NCBI GenBank assembly: GCA_016184445.1
Contig: JACPCT010000183.1
Coordinates: 1 to 7,174, forward strand
Origin: Candidatus Tectimicrobiota bacterium
GTDB taxonomy: Bacteria; UBA8248
Length of the DNA stretch: 7,174 bases
Direction of reading: 5' to 3'
The notes under the pieces were generated by a model. The model was not told where the DNA came from, did not search any database, and was given only the letters and a program-made list of their open reading frames with translations. A program made the translations under genes and the position numbers. This document shows positions 1 to 7,174 of this stretch, one piece after another (the first letter of the stretch is position 1; each line of letters begins with the position of its first letter).

Positions 1-2183
1 AGGACGGCGGGCGCCGTGGGGTTCACCGAGGGCTCCGCCACCCCCTTCACCCCGAAGGGCCCGCGCGGCTCCAGGGCCTCGACGATGAGGGAGGTGAAGT
101 CGCCTGGCATGTCCGCCGAGGTCGGGATGAGGTAGTCCCGGAAGCCGGGGTTCAGCACCCGGCCCCCGCCCATCTGGATGAGCTCCATCGTCCCCAGGCC
201 GAAGCCCATGCTGGCCCCGCCCTCGATTTGCCCCTCCACGTTCATCGGGTTGATGGCCCGGCCCACGTCGTGCGCCGCCACGAGGCGGAGGACACGGTAC
301 TCCCCCGTCTCCGCGTCCACCTCCACCTCGGCGCACTGGGTGGCGAAGACGTAGCACTCGAAGGCCTTGCCCTGGTGGTTCGCCTTGTTCACCCCCATGT
401 CCTTGGAGTGGTGGAGGCCCTCGGCGAGGAGGATATCCCCTGCCTTATAAGAGTTCTGGGCGATCTCGGCGAGGCGCTTCTTGCGCTCGGGGGCCGAGGC
501 GACGAAGACCTCCCCGTCCGCGATCTGGAGGTCCTCCGGGGCCGCCTCGAGCGCCGCGGCGGCCCTCGCAAGGAGCTTCTCCTTCACCCGGGCCACCGCC
601 TTCTTCACCCCGAGGCCGCCCACGTGGGCCACCCGGCTCCCGGTCGAGCCCGGGTCGAAGGGGGCGATCGCGGTGTCGCCGTTGATGAGCTGGACGTGCT
701 CGAAGGGGACGCCCAGCTCCTCCGCCGCGATCTGGCGCAGGATGACGTTCGCCCCCTGGCCCACGTCCACGATGCCCGTGATGACGGTGAGGGTCGCGTC
801 CGCGTTCACCCGGGCGAAGGCCGCGGCGGGCGTGGCCTGGCCGAAGCCGGCGACGGGGTAGATCATGGCCGCCATCCCGCGCCCGCGGCGGTAGCGGCCC
901 AAGCGCCTGCCCCGCCCGATCCCGTCCCAGCCGATGGCGGCGGCCGCGCGGTCCATGGTCTCGGCCAGGCCGCAGCTGGTGATGGCATCCCCGCTGTGGG
1001 CGGGGTCCCCCGTCTTCATGGCGTTGCGGCGCCGCAGCTCCATCGGCTCGATGCCCAGCCTGCGCGCGATGAGGTCCATGTGCCGCTCGCAGGCGAAGGT
1101 GGTCTGGGTGGCCCCGAAGCCCCGGACCGCCCCGGCGAAGCCGTTGTTGGTGTAGGCGAGGCGGAAATCCGATCGGACGTTCGGGATGACGTAGGGCCCG
1201 GGCGCCATGAGCGCCCCCTTGGCTCCCACCCCGGTGCCCGCGGCGCAGTAGGCCCCGCCGTCCAGCAGGCAGCGGACGTGGACCGCCGTGATCCTGCCCT
1301 CCCGCGTCAGGCCGGTCTTGAAGTCCATGGTGAAGGCGTGCCGGACGGTGGAAACGGTGAACTCCTCCTCCCGGGTCATGCGGAAGGTGACGGGCCGGCG
1401 GGTCTTGATGGCGCAGAGGGAGGCGAGGGATTCGAGCATGATCTCGTGCTTGCCGCCGAAGGCGCCGCCCGAGACGCAGCTCACCACCCGCACCCGCGAG
1501 AGGGGGAGCTTGAGCACCCGGGCGAGGTCGGCCTGGATGCGGAAGGGGGTCTGGGAGGAGACGTAGACGTTGAGCCTCCCCGCCGGGTCCACCTCGGCCA
1601 GGGTGAGGTGGGGCTCGATGGCGGCGTGCTCCTGGGGGCCCGTGCGGTAGCGCGCCTCGACGATGACCTCCGCCTCGGCGAAGCCCCTCTCGATGTCCCC
1701 CCGGATGACGGAGCCCTGGGCCACCAGGTTCCCGGTGGGGTGGGACTCGTGCACCAGGGGGCTCTCCGGGCGCAGGGCCTCCTCCGGGTCGGTGACGGCG
1801 GGCAGGTCCTCGTACCGGACCCGGACGAGGCGGGCGGCGGCCTCGGCGGCCTCCCAGCTCGTGGCGCACAGCGCCGCGACCGGGTCGCCCTCGTAGCGCA
1901 CCTTCACCCCGCAGAGGACGGGCTGATCGGGGAGCACCAGGCCGTAGGAGTTGACGGGCACGTCCGCCGCCGTCAGGACGCAGGCGACGCCGGGGGCCTT
2001 GGCGGCGCGGCTCGCGTCCACGCGGAGGATGCGGGCGTGGGGGCGGCCCGAACGGACGACCGCCCCGTAGAGCATCCCGGGCCGCTGGAGGTCTTCCACG
2101 AACCGGCTGAGCCCCGCCACCATCTCGGGGCCGTCCTCGCGCGGGTAGCTCTTGCCGAGGGACCGGAGGGGGCGCTCGCCCAT
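1..2183 (-). CDS. Xanthine dehydrogenase family molybdopterin-binding (large) subunit, C-terminus cut by window edge
   Basis: The frame is open from ATG 2183 to the left edge without a stop: 727 codons, and the family usually has about 750-780. This is the molybdenum-cofactor catalytic subunit of a CoxL/XdhB-type hydroxylase, which hydroxylates an aromatic, heterocyclic or aldehyde carbon with water as the oxygen source. Visible motifs in order: an N-terminal a/b-hammerhead region (RFVEDLQRPGMLYGAVVRSG, then GDPVAAL), GGAFGGKHE at 239-247, the active-site loop AVRGFG at 352-357, GQG at 475-477 (matching Gln767 of bovine XDH), VEGQIEGG, and GVAEP with the expected catalytic Glu at 717 (bovine Glu1261). 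There is no [2Fe-2S] or FAD domain, so separate small and medium subunits are expected but are not in the window. The start is supported by a GGAAAGGA ribosome-binding site 8 bases upstream. Repeat-bearing intergenic DNA separates it from the upstream monooxygenase gene, so it is probably its own transcription unit. Substrate unknown. Confidence 0.93.
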   Translation of the reverse strand, partial: MGERPLRSLGKSYPREDGPEMVAGLSRFVEDLQRPGMLYGAVVRSGRPHARILRVDASRAAKAPGVACVLTAADVPVNSYGLVLPDQPVLCGVKVRYEGDPVAALCATSWEAAEAAARLVRVRYEDLPAVTDPEEALRPESPLVHESHPTGNLVAQGSVIRGDIERGFAEAEVIVEARYRTGPQEHAAIEPHLTLAEVDPAGRLNVYVSSQTPFRIQADLARVLKLPLSRVRVVSCVSGGAFGGKHEIMLESLASLCAIKTRRPVTFRMTREEEFTVSTVRHAFTMDFKTGLTREGRITAVHVRCLLDGGAYCAAGTGVGAKGALMAPGPYVIPNVRSDFRLAYTNNGFAGAVRGFGATQTTFACERHMDLIARRLGIEPMELRRRNAMKTGDPAHSGDAITSCGLAETMDRAAAAIGWDGIGRGRRLGRYRRGRGMAAMIYPVAGFGQATPAAAFARVNADATLTVITGIVDVGQGANVILRQIAAEELGVPFEHVQLINGDTAIAPFDPGSTGSRVAHVGGLGVKKAVARVKEKLLARAAAALEAAPEDLQIADGEVFVASAPERKKRLAEIAQNSYKAGDILLAEGLHHSKDMGVNKANHQGKAFECYVFATQCAEVEVDAETGEYRVLRLVAAHDVGRAINPMNVEGQIEGGASMGFGLGTMELIQMGGGRVLNPGFRDYLIPTSADMPGDFTSLIVEALEPRGPFGVKGVAEPSVNPTAPAV

Positions 2184-2646: not shown

Positions 2647-3702
2647 TCACCCGGCCCGGGCGCCCAGCCGCTCCCCCAGGGGCAGCAGGGGCATGACCTC
2701 GCGGGCGAAGCGCTCCATCTCCTCCAGCATGGGGTGGAACTGGAGGAGGAAGAGGCCCACCCCGGCCCGGTGGAATTCCAGGATGCGGGAGGCCAAGGTG
2801 GCCGGGCTCCCGACCAGGCCGGCCGCCGTGCCCCCGTTTGTCCCCACCCGGTCGGCCTGGACGCTCGTCCCGCGGTGCCGGGCCTCCCGGTCCACCCCGG
2901 TGATGACGGCGGCCGGCCCGAGGAGGGAGCACAGGCGCTCGTGCTCCCGGCGGGCGGCCTCGTCCGTCTCCCGGCAGATGGCGAAGGTGCTCATGCCGAA
3001 GCCCACGCCGCGCCTGCAGGCCGCGGCCTCCGCCCGGACGGCGTCCATGAGGGCGCGGGCGTCCTCGAGCGGCCGCCCGTTGAAGAGGAAGACGTCCGCC
3101 GCCCTGGCCGCGAGGCGCACGGCGGCCTCCGATTCCCCGCCGAAGTAGAACGTGGGCCAGGGCTTCCGGATGGGCTTGGGGGCGCAGACGCCGTCCCGGA
3201 TGCGGAAGAACTCGCCCTCGAAGGCGAAGTGGTCCTCGGTCCAGAACTTGCGGAGGACCTCCATCGCCTCGGCGGAGAGGTCGTAGCGGCGGTCGTGGGG
3301 CGGGAAGGGGATGCCCGCCATGTCGTGCTCGTGCTGCCACCAGCCCGAGACGATGTTGATGGCGAAGCGGCCCCCGCTGATGCGGTCGATGTTGGCCCCC
3401 ATCTGGGCGGCGAGCGCCGGATGGCGGTAGGCGCTGCGGCTGGCGACGATGAGCTCGATCCGGCGGGTCAGGGGGGCCAGGGCCGCCGCCGTGATCCAGG
3501 CCTCGAGGATGGGGGCGCCGGGGCCCTTGATGGAGTTGAGGCTCCGATCCAGCAGCAGGGTGCTCTCGAAGCCCAGCTCCTCGGCGCGCTGGATGTAGCG
3601 GAGGTTGTGCTCGAAGGTGGCCTCGCGGACGGCCTCGGGCGGCTCCTGCTGCACGAGGAAGGTGCCCCAGACGGGGGCCCAGACGCCCAGACGCAAGGCC
3701 AT
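2647..3702 (-). CDS. LLM class flavin-dependent monooxygenase, SsuD/SfnG-like
   Basis: A complete 351-residue bacterial-luciferase-fold protein, the normal length for the SsuD/SfnG branch. That branch uses reduced FMN and oxygen to cleave C-S bonds of sulfonates or sulfones, or related substrates. Visible landmarks: GVWAPVWGTF at 6-15, NSIKG at 56-60 then LEAWITAAALAPLTRRIELI, HPALAAQMGANIDRISGGRF at 94-113, the SGWW turn at 119-122, HDRRY at 136-140, FYFGGESEAA at 185-194, FNGRPLEDAR at 207-216, GLVGSP at 295-300 and LFLLQFHPMLEEMERF at 317-332. The start ATG is preceded by a strong GGGAGGAGGGG ribosome-binding site. It lies 24 bases after the stop of the CMD-like gene and is the last gene of the likely three-gene operon. 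It ends in TGA, so UGA is a normal stop in this genome. No flavin reductase partner is in view. The exact substrate cannot be assigned; the family assignment is firm. Confidence 0.93.
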   Translation of the reverse strand: MALRLGVWAPVWGTFLVQQEPPEAVREATFEHNLRYIQRAEELGFESTLLLDRSLNSIKGPGAPILEAWITAAALAPLTRRIELIVASRSAYRHPALAAQMGANIDRISGGRFAINIVSGWWQHEHDMAGIPFPPHDRRYDLSAEAMEVLRKFWTEDHFAFEGEFFRIRDGVCAPKPIRKPWPTFYFGGESEAAVRLAARAADVFLFNGRPLEDARALMDAVRAEAAACRRGVGFGMSTFAICRETDEAARREHERLCSLLGPAAVITGVDREARHRGTSVQADRVGTNGGTAAGLVGSPATLASRILEFHRAGVGLFLLQFHPMLEEMERFAREVMPLLPLGERLGARAG

Positions 3703-3726: not shown

Positions 3727-4392
3727 CTAGCGCATGTCTTTCTTCTGGAAGGCGATGCGCCCGCCGGGGGGCTCGACCACGAGGTGGAGGGCCTCGGCCA
3801 CCCGGCCCGAGAGGTTCCACATGCCGCAGACGAAGGTGAGCTCCACGATCTGGCGCGTGGTGAAGTGCTTCTTCATCTCCTCGAAGGCGAAGTCGTTCTG
3901 CTTCGCGGTGAGGCGGGTCACCTCGTCCGCCCAGCGGATGACCGCCTTCTCCTTGCCGCTGAAGAGGGGGCTGTCCTTCCACCCGTCCCCGTCGAGGAGG
4001 TCAATCTGATCCGCCGTGAGGCCCAGAGCCCGACCGAGCTCTACGTTGTGCCCCACTCAGTTGTTGCATTGGGTGAGGAGGGCCGTCTTGACGATGACGA
4101 GCTCCATGATGCGGATGTAGTCGGGGTCGGTCTTGAGCCGGTCGGTCCTGAGCTTCTGGTCGAGCAGCATCCAGGCCTCGACCAGGACCGGGGCGTGGCC
4201 GAGCATCTGAAAGTAGCGCGGCACCGTGCCCCACATCTCGAACGCCCACTGGTAGCTGGGCGCCAGCTCCTCCCGGATGTCCGCCGGGATGTCGCCCGGA
4301 GGGACGAAGGGCACCCGGGGCACCGGGCACGCCATCATCTCCTCGGTCACGCCCATCCCGGGCGCGAGGCTCGTCTTCCCGTCCACCGCCAT
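3727..4392 (-). CDS. Carboxymuconolactone decarboxylase / AhpD-like selenoprotein, in-frame UGA read as selenocysteine at residue 112
   Basis: Read through TGA 4059-4057, this is one 221-residue protein; without readthrough it is a 111-residue and a 109-residue fragment in the same frame. The N-terminal part holds RVPFVPPGDIP and FEMWGTVPRYFQMLGHAP, typical of CMD-family proteins. The core helix MELVIVKTALLTQ leads into C109-N-N-U112-V-G-H115, and the family has CxxC at this point. Glu97 is 12 residues before Cys109, the same spacing as Glu118 and Cys130 in mycobacterial AhpD. Beyond the UGA, LGLTADQIDLLDG, SPLFSGKEKAVIRWADEVT and HFTTRQIVELTFVCGMWN are all well-kept family sequence with GC-rich codons and no further disruption. 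These proteins act as thiol peroxidases or disulfide reductases; Sec should raise redox reactivity. The start ATG has a GGGAGGGG ribosome-binding site. It sits 36 bases after the Mo-hydroxylase gene and 24 before the monooxygenase gene. A nonsense mutation or read error is the main alternative, but the exact Cys position and the hairpin argue for Sec. Confidence 0.85.
4025..4056 (-). promoter_or_regulatory. Candidate bacterial SECIS hairpin immediately downstream of the UGA
   Basis: The 32 bases after the UGA contain AGAGCUC (4042-4036), loop GGUC (4035-4032) and GGGCUCU (4031-4025). They form a continuous 7-bp stem with one U-G wobble. The loop starts 22 bases after the UGA and its first two bases are G, which fits the known bacterial SECIS layout: apical loop roughly 16-37 bases from the UGA, with a conserved G at the top. 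In E. coli fdhF the loop is AGGUCU; here the closing pair and loop read C-GGUC-G. The wobble U at 4037 could instead bulge out, as the functional bulged U does in fdhF. The hairpin lies wholly in the coding sequence, as bacterial SECIS elements do. SelB recognition is inferred. Confidence 0.75.
4057..4059 (-). other. UGA codon, predicted selenocysteine insertion site
   Basis: On the minus strand the local codons are TGC AAC AAC TGA GTG GGG CAC, giving C-N-N-U-V-G-H. The family consensus has Cys at this codon, and TGA is one base from TGC or TGT. The position therefore matches a Cys/Sec exchange and not a random stop. Reassignment of UGA to Trp is unlikely, because the next gene ends in TGA and Trp is not expected here. 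Confidence 0.82.
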
Positions 4393-4428: not shown

Positions 4429-6687
4429 CTAGGCTCCGTTGCCCGCAGCGGCGAGAGCTTTCCGCAGATGATGGGGCCCGACCGGGATGGAGAAGAACGG
4501 CACCCCGGCCGCGTCCTGGATCGCGTTCACGATGGCCGCGGCCGTGGCCACGATGGGGGGCTCCCCCACCCCTCTCATGCCCAAGGGCGTCCCTTCAGCG
4601 GGATTGTCGAAGAGGATGGCCTTGAGCTCCGGCATGTCCATGCTGGTCGGGAGGAGATACTCGTGGAGGCTCTCCCCGCCGAGCCGCCCGTCCGGATGCC
4701 GGAACTGCTCCTCCATGAGGGCGAGGCCCATGCCCTGGACCATCGCCCCCTCGATCTGGCCTTCGACCGAGAGCGGGTTGATGGCGAAGCCCACGTCCTG
4801 GACGCAGACGAGGCGGAGCACCCGCACCTCGCCCAGCTCCGGGCGGACCGCCACCTCGGCCACCTGGGCGATGTAGATCGGGCACGCCGGAGGCTTGGGG
4901 CTTGCCCCCTGGCCGATGAGGAAACCCACGATCTCGGGGGCGGCCTTCGCCACCTGCGCGAGCGTGAGGGAACGCTCCGGCGCCGAGGCGACCTTCACCT
5001 TCCCGTCCTCGAGGACCAAATCCCCGGGCGCGGCCTCGAGCTTGGCGCCCGCGACGTCCAGGATCTTCTTTCGCAAGTCACGAACCGCGCTCAGCACCGC
5101 CGCGCCCACCGAGCGCGTCGCCTTGCTTCCCGAGGCGGCGGTGGACTCGGGGACGGTGTCCGTGTCGCCCGTCGTGTAGCGGACGTTGTCCAGCCGGACG
5201 CCCAGCGACTCGGCGGCGAGCTGGCAGAGGGAGGTGCTGGCCCCCGTCAGGTTCACCGTGCCCGACATCACTTGGAGGGAGCCGTCCCCGTTCAGGCGGA
5301 CGGAGCAGCTCGACGCCTCGCCCGGCCCGTGCCAGAAGCCGCAGGCGATGCCCCGGCCGTACCGCCAGCCCTCCTCCTCCGGGAGGTCCGCCCGGCGGGG
5401 GACGGGCTGGCCCCAGCGGCCCTCGGCCGCCGCCCGCTCCATCACCTTCTGCATGGAGCCGTCCTGGTGGGTCCCCGCGAGGGACTTGTCCCCGGGGCGC
5501 AGCGCGTTCAGGCGCCGGAACTCCAGGGGATCGATGCCGAGCTCCCGGGCGATGATGTCGGTGTGGACCTCGGTGGCGAAGTGGTACTGCGGCCCGCTGG
5601 GGGCGCGGACCGGCCCCGCCACCGGGGCGTTGGTGTACACCGTGCAGGCCTTCACCCGGACGTCGGGGATGCGGTAGACGGACGAGGCCATGCCCATCTT
5701 GCTGCTGCACTGGAACGGCGCGCCCCGCCCGTAGGCGCCGTGCTCCATGGTGACGTCCAGCTCGCGCGCGACCATCGTGCCGTCCCGCTTCACGCCGGTC
5801 TTGATGGTGAAGACGTGGGGGTGGCGCGGGTTGACCCCCCTGTGGTCCTCCTCGCGCGACATCTCCATGCGGACGGCCTGGCCGGTCCGGAGGGCCAGGA
5901 GGGCCGCGATGTGCTCGAAGGTGCTCTTGAGCTTGGAGCCGAAGCCGCCGCCGATCTCGGTCGGGATGACGCGCACCTTCGTCGCCGGCAGGCCGAGCGC
6001 CTCCGCCACGTCGGCGCGGATGGCCCAGGCATCCTGGGTGGTGGTCCAGATGGTCACTTTCCCATCGGCGCCGGCTTCCGCGGTGCAGGCGTGGGGCTCG
6101 ATGTAGCCGGCGTGGGCGTGGGGGGTGAGGAAGGTGTGCTCGAAAACCCTGTCGGCCCGGGCGAAACCGGAGTCGGGGCTCCCGATGGTCTTCTCGAAGC
6201 GCGCGAGGACGTTCCCCTCGCCGCCGGGGCCCAGCTTGAGCTGCTTCCAGTCCTCGTGCAGGAGGAGGGTCCTCCCCTCCCGGCTCGCGATGGGGTCCAC
6301 GACGGGCGCGAGGGGCGCGTAGCGGACCCGGACGGCCTCCAGCGCCGCCTGCGCCGCCTCGAGCGTCTCGGCCGCGACGGCGGCGACAGGCTCGCCCACG
6401 TAGCGCACGCAGCCGTCCTTGGCGAGCCAGCTCTGGTCCTTGATGTCCCCCCCGAAGCGGATGCCGGGGCACTCCTCGCGCGTGAGCACATAGCGCACGC
6501 CGGGAATCCGGCGCGCCCGCGAGGCGTCCACCGAGAGCACGCGCGCGAAGGCATGGGGGCTCCCCAGGACGCGCCCCACCAGCGCCCGGGCCACGGGCAC
6601 GTCGGCCCCGAAGCAGGCCGTGCCGGCCGCCTTGTCGGGCGTGTCGATCCTTGTAAGGGCTTTCCCCGCCACCCGGTAGTCCGCCAT
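4429..6687 (-). CDS. Xanthine dehydrogenase family molybdopterin-binding (large) subunit
   Basis: A complete 752-residue Mo-hydroxylase catalytic subunit, paralogous to the one at the left edge. It should hydroxylate an organic substrate at a Mo-molybdopterin centre and pass electrons to FeS and FAD subunits that are not in the window. Landmarks: ALVGRVLGSPHAFARV and YVGEPVAAVA in the N-terminal hammerhead domain, GGGFGSK at 246-252, the substrate-loop equivalent GPVRAPSGPQ with Arg361, VEGQIEGAMVQGMGLALMEE, and RGVGEPP with the expected catalytic Glu at 709. Two positions differ from classical XDH: the GQG glutamine is replaced in NLTGAS (Thr481), and the loop F-R-G-F-G is replaced by V-R-A-P-S. 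A longer start at GTG 6693 is possible, but that codon overlaps the GGAGG ribosome-binding site, so ATG 6687 is chosen. It is the first gene of the likely operon with the CMD selenoprotein and monooxygenase. Substrate unknown; the changed pocket suggests it is not xanthine. Confidence 0.93.
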   Translation of the reverse strand: MADYRVAGKALTRIDTPDKAAGTACFGADVPVARALVGRVLGSPHAFARVLSVDASRARRIPGVRYVLTREECPGIRFGGDIKDQSWLAKDGCVRYVGEPVAAVAAETLEAAQAALEAVRVRYAPLAPVVDPIASREGRTLLLHEDWKQLKLGPGGEGNVLARFEKTIGSPDSGFARADRVFEHTFLTPHAHAGYIEPHACTAEAGADGKVTIWTTTQDAWAIRADVAEALGLPATKVRVIPTEIGGGFGSKLKSTFEHIAALLALRTGQAVRMEMSREEDHRGVNPRHPHVFTIKTGVKRDGTMVARELDVTMEHGAYGRGAPFQCSSKMGMASSVYRIPDVRVKACTVYTNAPVAGPVRAPSGPQYHFATEVHTDIIARELGIDPLEFRRLNALRPGDKSLAGTHQDGSMQKVMERAAAEGRWGQPVPRRADLPEEEGWRYGRGIACGFWHGPGEASSCSVRLNGDGSLQVMSGTVNLTGASTSLCQLAAESLGVRLDNVRYTTGDTDTVPESTAASGSKATRSVGAAVLSAVRDLRKKILDVAGAKLEAAPGDLVLEDGKVKVASAPERSLTLAQVAKAAPEIVGFLIGQGASPKPPACPIYIAQVAEVAVRPELGEVRVLRLVCVQDVGFAINPLSVEGQIEGAMVQGMGLALMEEQFRHPDGRLGGESLHEYLLPTSMDMPELKAILFDNPAEGTPLGMRGVGEPPIVATAAAIVNAIQDAAGVPFFSIPVGPHHLRKALAAAGNGA

Positions 6688-6697
6688 CTCCACCTCC
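6688..6697 (-). promoter_or_regulatory. Ribosome-binding site that decides the start of the second large subunit
   Basis: GGAGG at 6697-6693 lies 5 bases before ATG 6687, good Shine-Dalgarno spacing. The in-frame GTG at 6693-6691 uses the last G of this GGAGG, so it is unlikely to be the start. Confidence 0.7.
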
Positions 6698-6822: not shown

Positions 6823-7174
6823 CTAGAGGGGCCACCTCTCCAGGCGGTAGGCCTGCTCCCAGAACATCCACTCGTAGCGGCTGGAGAGGAGGAAGGCATC
6901 GAGAGCCTGGGCGCGCTCCAGGCTCCCCAGGGAGGGGCCCAGGCGGTCGGCCAGGGCGAGCTGGACCTCGACGAGACCGCCGTAGCCCTCCCCCGCGTAG
7001 ACCGAGATCCACTCGGCGCAGAGGGGGTTTTCGGGGAGCCGCCCGGCCAGCCGGAGGCCCACCTCGCGGTAGATCCAGTAGCAGGGCAGCACCGCCGCCA
7101 GCCCCACGGCGAGGCTCCCGGCCCGGCAGGTGGCCAGAAGGTGGCGGGTGTAGGCCACGGTGACGGGGCCGGGG
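6823..7174 (-). CDS. tenA: TenA/thiaminase II family protein, N-terminus cut by window edge
   Basis: 116 residues of the C-terminal part are present; the frame runs off the right edge with no start visible, as the apparent GTG start at 7158 is internal. TenA proteins hydrolyse aminopyrimidine compounds or thiamine and take part in thiamine-pyrimidine salvage in the cytoplasm. The match is clear: LPCYWIY carries the catalytic Cys (codon 7083-7081) and the Tyr four residues on, equivalent to Cys135 and Tyr139 of Bacillus subtilis TenA. EWISVYAGEGY puts a Tyr 28 residues after that Cys (Tyr163 equivalent). SSRYEWMFWEQAY places a Glu at +70 (Glu205 equivalent), and the protein ends RLERWPL. All expected C-terminal catalytic positions are kept, so the enzyme looks functional. 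It is co-directional with the downstream Mo-hydroxylase gene, but a 135-base gap and a promoter candidate suggest separate transcription. It could be a TenA_C-type salvage enzyme or a diverged relative. Confidence 0.9.
   Translation of the reverse strand, partial: PGPVTVAYTRHLLATCRAGSLAVGLAAVLPCYWIYREVGLRLAGRLPENPLCAEWISVYAGEGYGGLVEVQLALADRLGPSLGSLERAQALDAFLLSSRYEWMFWEQAYRLERWPL

Follow-up and report, generated by a model that had tools for sequence, protein, structure and literature searches.

AhpD-like selenoproteins with a CxxU motif (COG2128/TIGR01926, YciW-type), in which selenocysteine (Sec, U) takes the second position, have been on record since 2005 (PMC1088965) and are plentiful in marine sequence data (PMC2398784), and a 2026 review includes both AhpD-like and CMD-like CxxU selenoproteins (PMC13188914). 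Here we describe a gene of this kind on the minus strand of a 7,174-nucleotide stretch of contig JACPCT010000183.1 from Candidatus Tectimicrobiota bacterium (hereafter the window). Its most likely reading is that 4392-3727 forms one gene of 221 codons, in which UGA codon 112 is read as Sec. The window protein resembles the marine proteins in superfamily, in Sec as the second residue of CxxU, and in a predicted bacterial Sec insertion sequence (SECIS) (PMC1088965, PMC2398784), whereas it differs from them as a 221-residue subfamily, usually accompanied by a molybdenum (Mo) hydroxylase gene, in a phylum that mostly carries several paralogues. With the CMD-like CxxU selenoproteins (PF02627; PMC13188914, PMC9312934) it has the CMD domain and CxxU in common, although its Pfam CMD score of 21.6 bits is just under the gathering score of 23; 17 of the 20 CxxU proteins scanned matched CMD at E ≤ 0.001. 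Its score for TIGR01926 was 32.7 bits (cut-off 81.8). The top-scoring named family was NF053654 (GroundWater_YciW, YciW-related (seleno)protein, NCBIfam), which was matched by all 20 scanned proteins (best E 8.4e-46; L026, 42.6 bits; L004, 47.3 bits), yet the 45.9 bits of the window protein are far below the cut-off of 310. A preliminary description of this DNA had suggested an undescribed subfamily, and the scores below all three cut-offs agree with that suggestion as far as tested.

AhpD is characterized by a Glu, a Cys-x-x-Cys motif and a His at +4, and γ-carboxymuconolactone decarboxylase has no Cys-x-x-Cys motif (PMC3141380). The window protein possesses CxxU, unlike the decarboxylase, and has the Glu (Glu97) and C109-x-x-U112 expected for the AhpD proton relay, but its His is located at +3 and Asn occupies +4. 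The same spacing separates it from AhpD-type peroxidase-related proteins (PDB 6k40, 2prr, 2oyo, 2gmy, and 2o4d/PA0269), which have Cys as the second motif residue and His at +4. The debrominase Bmp8 (PDB 6ohi and 6ohj) shares with the window protein the fold and a motif with His at +3 (U replacing the second Cys); however, the identity is 14%, Bmp8 has Cys only, and the annotated genes of the window include no bromopyrrole genes. An AhpD-like all-helical fold is predicted for the window protein. Residues 168-213 also matched pentatricopeptide proteins in the PDB, a result judged to reflect a spurious helical resemblance.

In-frame UGA codon and its conservation

As the preliminary description had stated, two abutting open reading frames (ORFs) lie in the same frame: the first, 4392-4057, encodes 111 amino acids and ends at TGA, and the second, 4056-3727, encodes 109 amino acids and opens on GTG right behind the TGA. 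The whole gene terminates on TAG at 3727-3729. With the TGA taken as a residue, a 221-amino acid protein with the motif C109-N-N-U112-V-G-H115-N116 is obtained.

A first protein-database search gave 32 matches, 29 of which have Cys at residue 112, mostly with Ser at residue 109; P0033 ends at residue 111, P0032 is without the motif region, and P0031 is considered below. Organism names accompanied two of the 32 (a Thermodesulfobacteriota metagenome-assembled genome (MAG) and an Anaerolineae MAG). In the aligned subfamily (35 rows, with P0031 outside the alignment), position 112 is always Cys or UGA and position 109 can be Ser, and other residues at position 112 were found in more distant paralogues only (Phe in L136 and L167). 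Because most of the closest Cys homologues have Ser first and keep the second Cys, the second motif position is indicated as the catalytic one. A profile search of proteins showed many proteins of 105 to 118 residues among 120 listed of 2644 matches, and all 26 of the short relatives that were fetched begin at residue 113 (18 proteins) or 117 (8 proteins), which is consistent with split C-terminal halves. Together with the truncated P0033, they bear out the earlier statement that ordinary gene calling splits the gene. In a collection of named genomes, 16 of 17 loci belong to the group of the window; one is from the Candidatus Tectomicrobia RIFCSPLOWO2_12_FULL_69_37 MAG (87% identical), 12 are titled Nitrospinota, Nitrospinae, or Nitrospinaceae, and three are titled just "bacterium". 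The 17th is a Roseibium gene with 36% identity and an ordinary Cys.

The genome of the window itself (G000) is a MAG of 2.3 Mb in 463 contigs and is 67% complete. A further homologue lies on its contig C426, where the codon of the second motif residue (CHFU) is likewise TGA; this match also counts a TAG, which sits upstream of the ATG of the ORF, as the match extends beyond that ATG. Among 61 genomes searched, each of the 17 same-family relatives gave a best match with one in-frame TGA; of the 43 genomes outside the family, three matched, and the rows listed for them had no stop. When the search was made at the level of the phylum, every one of the 18 genomes, which belong to a single family, was hit, with 121 matches in total at E ≤ 1e-20; exactly one in-frame TGA was present in 118 and none in three, and the position of the UGA in the motif is therefore not a matter of chance.

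We then read the codons of every CMD domain in 80 paralogue-bearing stretches (three of which repeat G000 loci) and in the loci of the earlier searches; the named-genome loci L091-L107 were excluded from the count because they duplicate the same genes. The codon for the second Cys was TGA in 108 of 125 domain rows, TGC in nine, TGT in one, TTC in two, and GAA in one, and four rows had no residue there. After three rows from outside the family and three G000 loci that were duplicates had been taken out, 119 in-family rows remained, among which 107 have a TGA; over 18,063 scanned codons, each of these has a single one, always at the second motif Cys. Cys is the first motif residue in 105 of these 107 genes. 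A genetic code with UGA reassigned to sense throughout was ruled out, since the flavin monooxygenase gene in the window stops on TGA and the 107 domains have no TGA outside the motif. At least 15 CxxU genes were present among the loci read in one genome (G008; 97% complete, 5% contamination), a scale beyond that of the preliminary description; the per-genome counts are lower bounds, with most CMD matches in G006, G015, G016, and G017 not fetched.

When 106 Sec rows, 36 Cys rows, and 2 others (144 in total) were placed in one tree, seven changes of the Sec label were needed, compared with a forced minimum of five and a mean of 33.9 for shuffled labels. The window protein clusters with those of G001 and G002 (support 100/99), and the 24 nearest Cys homologues of the protein database fall together in a single clade with good support, placed among those with Sec. 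A change from Sec to Cys is only suggested as the direction, because the tree is midpoint-rooted and several joins lie on long branches. Two paired arrangements were also observed among the paralogues. Two contigs of G008 (C49 and C104; L131 and L137) carry tandem CMD genes, a CxxU copy followed by an SxxC copy without His at +3, and the latter is perhaps a non-catalytic or partner subunit. In two genomes (L136 and L167), a divergent CxxU gene (DCNYUGNVR) adjoins a copy without both motif residues (EDTYF), which looks like a conserved unequal pair.

Downstream hairpin and selenocysteine machinery

A predicted hairpin with G in its apical loop (GGUC) is located directly downstream of the UGA, and the loop resembles the SelB-binding loop of Escherichia coli fdhF. 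At least 4 bp around a GG-loop in a common register were found in 72 of 101 unique sequences, compared with a mean of 9.6 and a maximum of 19 in 1000 sets of synonymous-codon shuffles, and in the clade of the window itself 14 of 14 members have a stem of 6 to 8 bp. In the fixed register, the hairpin of the window alone had a P value of 0.005. C-G closes the stem in 51 sequences and U-A in 39, a silent change of the Leu codon (CTC or CTT) being coupled to the Arg or Gln codon. Covariation was examined in 27 diverse sequences, preselected for a stem of at least 4 bp, with 500 shuffles: 92% of the pair cells were paired, 34 cells were altered on both sides, and the covariation score was reached by none of the shuffles. 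The number of pairs with two-sided changes (4) was equalled in 47 of the 500 shuffles and that of further pair types (12) in 123, and shifting the partner strand reduced every measure. These results show that the hairpin is conserved beyond the protein constraint and covaries in sequence.

The preliminary description had proposed to look for selA, selB, selC, and selD in the source genome and had named their absence as a ground for refutation; this ground applies in the source MAG to selA, selB, and selC but not to selD, and it does not apply in the relatives. Of these, selD was found in G000 (L190, G000:C110:3464-4237; 289.7 bits), and in this gene TGA occupies the active-site position (GGUGSK), with a hairpin of up to 7 bp behind it, so that SelD of this MAG is likely to be a selenoprotein itself; one TGA is present in all 14 above-cut-off selD matches of the phylum. 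The other three were not found in this 67%-complete MAG, and the relatives were mostly positive. The tRNA-Sec scored above the gathering score in 16 of 17 relatives, G010 being the exception, and cmscan confirmed it at three of three loci. The anticodon was TCA at four of five tRNA loci checked, the fifth being a tRNA-Ser of G010, and the UCA-anticodon tRNAs recovered were 93-nt tRNA-Sec with scores of 72 to 76 bits. selA was over the cut-off in 14 of 17 relatives (below it in G010, G012, and G016), selB in 14 of 18 genomes with G000 counted (the exceptions being G000, G002, G010, and G016), and selD likewise in 14 of 18. The selB match of G010 (207.8 bits) is cut by the contig start. selA and selB were found in proximity, for example in G005 and G001. 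G008 carries two tRNA-Sec genes (L055 and L061) with an equal score of 74.1 bits, which fits either its large CxxU set or strain co-assembly.

Proposed function and alternative readings

Taken together, the UGA at the Cys of the homologues, its conservation throughout the phylum, the covarying hairpin, SelD and a second CxxU protein in the MAG, and selA, selB, and tRNA-Sec in most relatives support the selenoprotein assignment of the preliminary description. With considerable confidence, we regard the product as a Sec-decoded CxxU redox enzyme of predicted AhpD/CMD fold, probably a selenol-based peroxide or thiol oxidoreductase acting beside the Mo hydroxylase. The reaction itself, peroxide or thiol redox, is likely by analogy with the family. 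In the proposed mechanism, SelB and tRNA-Sec would almost certainly decode UGA112 at the hairpin, and Sec112 would then probably serve as the nucleophile, attacking as a selenolate. Cys109 would likely act as the resolving thiol that closes a selenenyl-sulfide, with His115 and Glu97 relaying protons and a thiol system resetting the enzyme. Tentatively, the Mo hydroxylase and the flavin enzymes of the pathway may release a peroxide or some other reactive compound, and this would be the substrate that the CxxU protein serves to remove.

Several observations weigh against this interpretation. In the source MAG, neither selA nor selB was found, and tRNA-Sec gave nine weak matches (best, 40.7 bits), eight of whose loci were scanned and were all ordinary tRNAs; because the MAG is 67% complete, these absences constitute a gap and not a test. 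No above-cut-off selD was found in G001 (96% complete), G007, G010, or G016, and no Sec component at all was over its cut-off in G010 (70% complete), which has a CxxU gene. No TGA is present in 12 of the 119 in-family rows (six TGC, one TGT, two TTC, and three without a residue), and the CxxU domain of L165 (G014:C226) was recovered only in three fragments, as in a copy that is decaying or frameshifted. Trp stands at position 112 of P0031, a relative from a metagenome; translation of a TGA with code 4 by the source pipeline may account for it, as may an error. As for the hairpin, 29 of the 101 unique sequences have no 4-bp stem in the common register, a register-free scan was less sharp (86 of 101 with at least 5 bp; shuffle mean 40.7, maximum 51), and the hairpin of the window alone then had a P value of 0.07. 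The His follows U at +3 instead of the canonical +4, and Glu97 is replaced by Gln in two of 14 clade members. Finally, the suggested peroxide role is based on family resemblance and genomic context.

An unlikely, though the least improbable, alternative is that the same selenoprotein would be a reductive dehalogenase on the scaffold of Bmp8, a CMD-family debrominase, its selenol removing the halogen of an aromatic or heterocyclic compound in the manner of deiodinases. The catalytic steps would be the same as above, with a halogenated substrate instead. However, the window protein alone had no Bmp8 match in the PDB at E ≤ 0.01, and AhpD-type structures scored equally or better than Bmp8. Moreover, the substrate complex of Bmp8 carries a mutation of the first Cys (C82A), whereas in the window protein Sec is second and the first residue can be Ser in relatives, and no halogen-metabolism gene is present among the annotated genes of the window. 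Just as doubtful is a broader proposal, that of a phylum-wide multigene AhpD/CMD selenoenzyme system with paralogues assigned to pathways and Cys forms derived from Sec ancestors, in which some members, that of the window included, would be deiodinase-like dehalogenases on an unrelated fold.

It is very improbable that a suppressor tRNA-Cys (UCA) inserts cysteine at the UGA, which would give an ordinary CxxC product. Opal-suppressor tRNA-Cys genes have been described, and Cys exactly at residue 112 in the 29 database homologues would agree with such decoding, but the UCA tRNAs found are tRNA-Sec (no search aimed at tRNA-Cys (UCA) was made in whole genomes), most relatives possess selA, selB, and Sec-type selD, and the hairpin past the UGA is conserved beyond the protein constraint. 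Least probable of all is a pseudogene, a sequencing error, or two proteins made by stop and restart, for although gene callers split the gene, GTG follows the UGA of the window, and L165 looks broken, UGA occurs in every genome of the phylum and at the same codon in 107 of 107 TGA domains with no other TGA, and a start-type codon (ATG, GTG, or TTG) directly follows UGA in only 12 of 107 genes. Both explanations were rejected on these respective grounds.

Novelty and gene neighbourhood

As far as our searches show, this subfamily, its link to the Mo hydroxylase, and a phylum with CxxU proteins in every searched genome, mostly several, are new. The available part of the review PMC13188914 mentions neither Nitrospin- names nor Tectomicrobia, and no word of the selenium type occurs in that of PMC10839748, on Nitrospinota comparative genomics. 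A literature search found no paper pairing selenoproteins with Nitrospinota-type names, none on selenoproteins among the best 10 of 37 matches for Tectomicrobia or Entotheonella, and one review for YciW with selenoprotein. Selenoproteomes of 57 and 63 genes have been reported (PMC13188914), so that a high count alone is not new. According to the same review, a groundwater study scanned more than 44,000 MAGs and found a Methylomirabilota MAG with 63 selenoprotein genes; that study may already include some of the genes described here.

Since UGA-split genes were found in all 18 genomes of the phylum searched, with the highest count read in G008, ordinary annotation probably misses a large set of selenium-dependent enzymes. 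One UGA-decoded redox family accounts for at least 118 gene matches in the 18 genomes of this uncultivated phylum; the subfamily of the window is stored in protein databases as half-length proteins, and the selenium dependence is hidden from metabolic reconstructions of bacteria deposited as Tectomicrobia and Nitrospinota. More than 100 paralogous or orthologous Sec sites, most with a recognizable hairpin loop, offer a training and testing set for recoding predictors, and the Cys and Ser-x-x-Cys versions within the same subfamily allow a direct comparison of why Sec is retained. Rich selenoproteomes are mainly found in anaerobes (PMC13188914, PMC9312934), and the flavin monooxygenase and Mo hydroxylase genes beside the Sec gene make it possible to ask whether this pattern is broken here.

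Table 1. Location of the CxxU gene, its motif and hairpin, and the neighbouring genes in the window
Feature	Positions	Strand	Description
AhpD/CMD-like CxxU protein	3727..4392	minus	Whole gene, 221 codons, in-frame UGA, TAG stop
In-frame TGA	4057..4059	minus	Codon 112, second Cys of the redox motif; putative Sec
Cys109 codon	4066..4068	minus	TGC, first residue of CxxU
His115 codon	4048..4050	minus	CAC, invariant in alignment A2
SECIS-like hairpin	4025..4042	minus	AGAGCUC-GGUC-GGGCUCU, GGUC loop, begins 14 nt past UGA
Mo hydroxylase large subunit	4429..6693	minus	XdhA/HcrA/CoxL type, 36 nt upstream of the selenoprotein gene
Luciferase-like flavin monooxygenase (LLM)	2647..3702	minus	SfnG/SsuD-like, 24 nt downstream, ordinary TGA stop
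Second Mo hydroxylase large subunit	3..2183	minus	Truncated by window end; neighbour, operon membership not shown

The preliminary description had placed the gene in an operon with a Mo hydroxylase and an SsuD/SfnG-like monooxygenase, and the first of these partners is conserved whereas the second mostly is not. A gene for a Mo hydroxylase large subunit lies immediately upstream in 14 of 22 loci (eight of 16 named loci and all six further ones), and the remaining eight named loci belong to a group that is further removed (59-65% identical). The LLM monooxygenase is downstream in only three of the 22, some loci stopping within 1.5 kb of the gene, and it was dropped as a defining partner. From these counts, the stable unit is the Mo hydroxylase together with the CxxU protein. 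Further upstream in eight named loci are an AcrB-type transporter (7/8), a zinc alcohol dehydrogenase (8/8, one cut at the contig end), and QueF (8/8).

A simple ORF caller with a GC3 filter performed poorly on the GC-rich loci, and only Pfam-confirmed ORFs were kept there. Ten proteins neighbouring other paralogues were assigned by Pfam to SDR, TctC, MocA, molybdopterin oxidoreductase, DehI, hydrolase, ABC transporter, and housekeeping families, one being without a family, and no single pathway can be deduced from such mixed neighbours. The DehI-type haloacid dehalogenase homologue (PF10778; L157:4138-5079) lies downstream of a CxxU gene in a cluster of four loci. At the edge of the window, a TenA-like thiaminase fragment is located at 6823-7158; of the 22 loci, L091 alone showed such a gene on the upstream side of the Mo hydroxylase.
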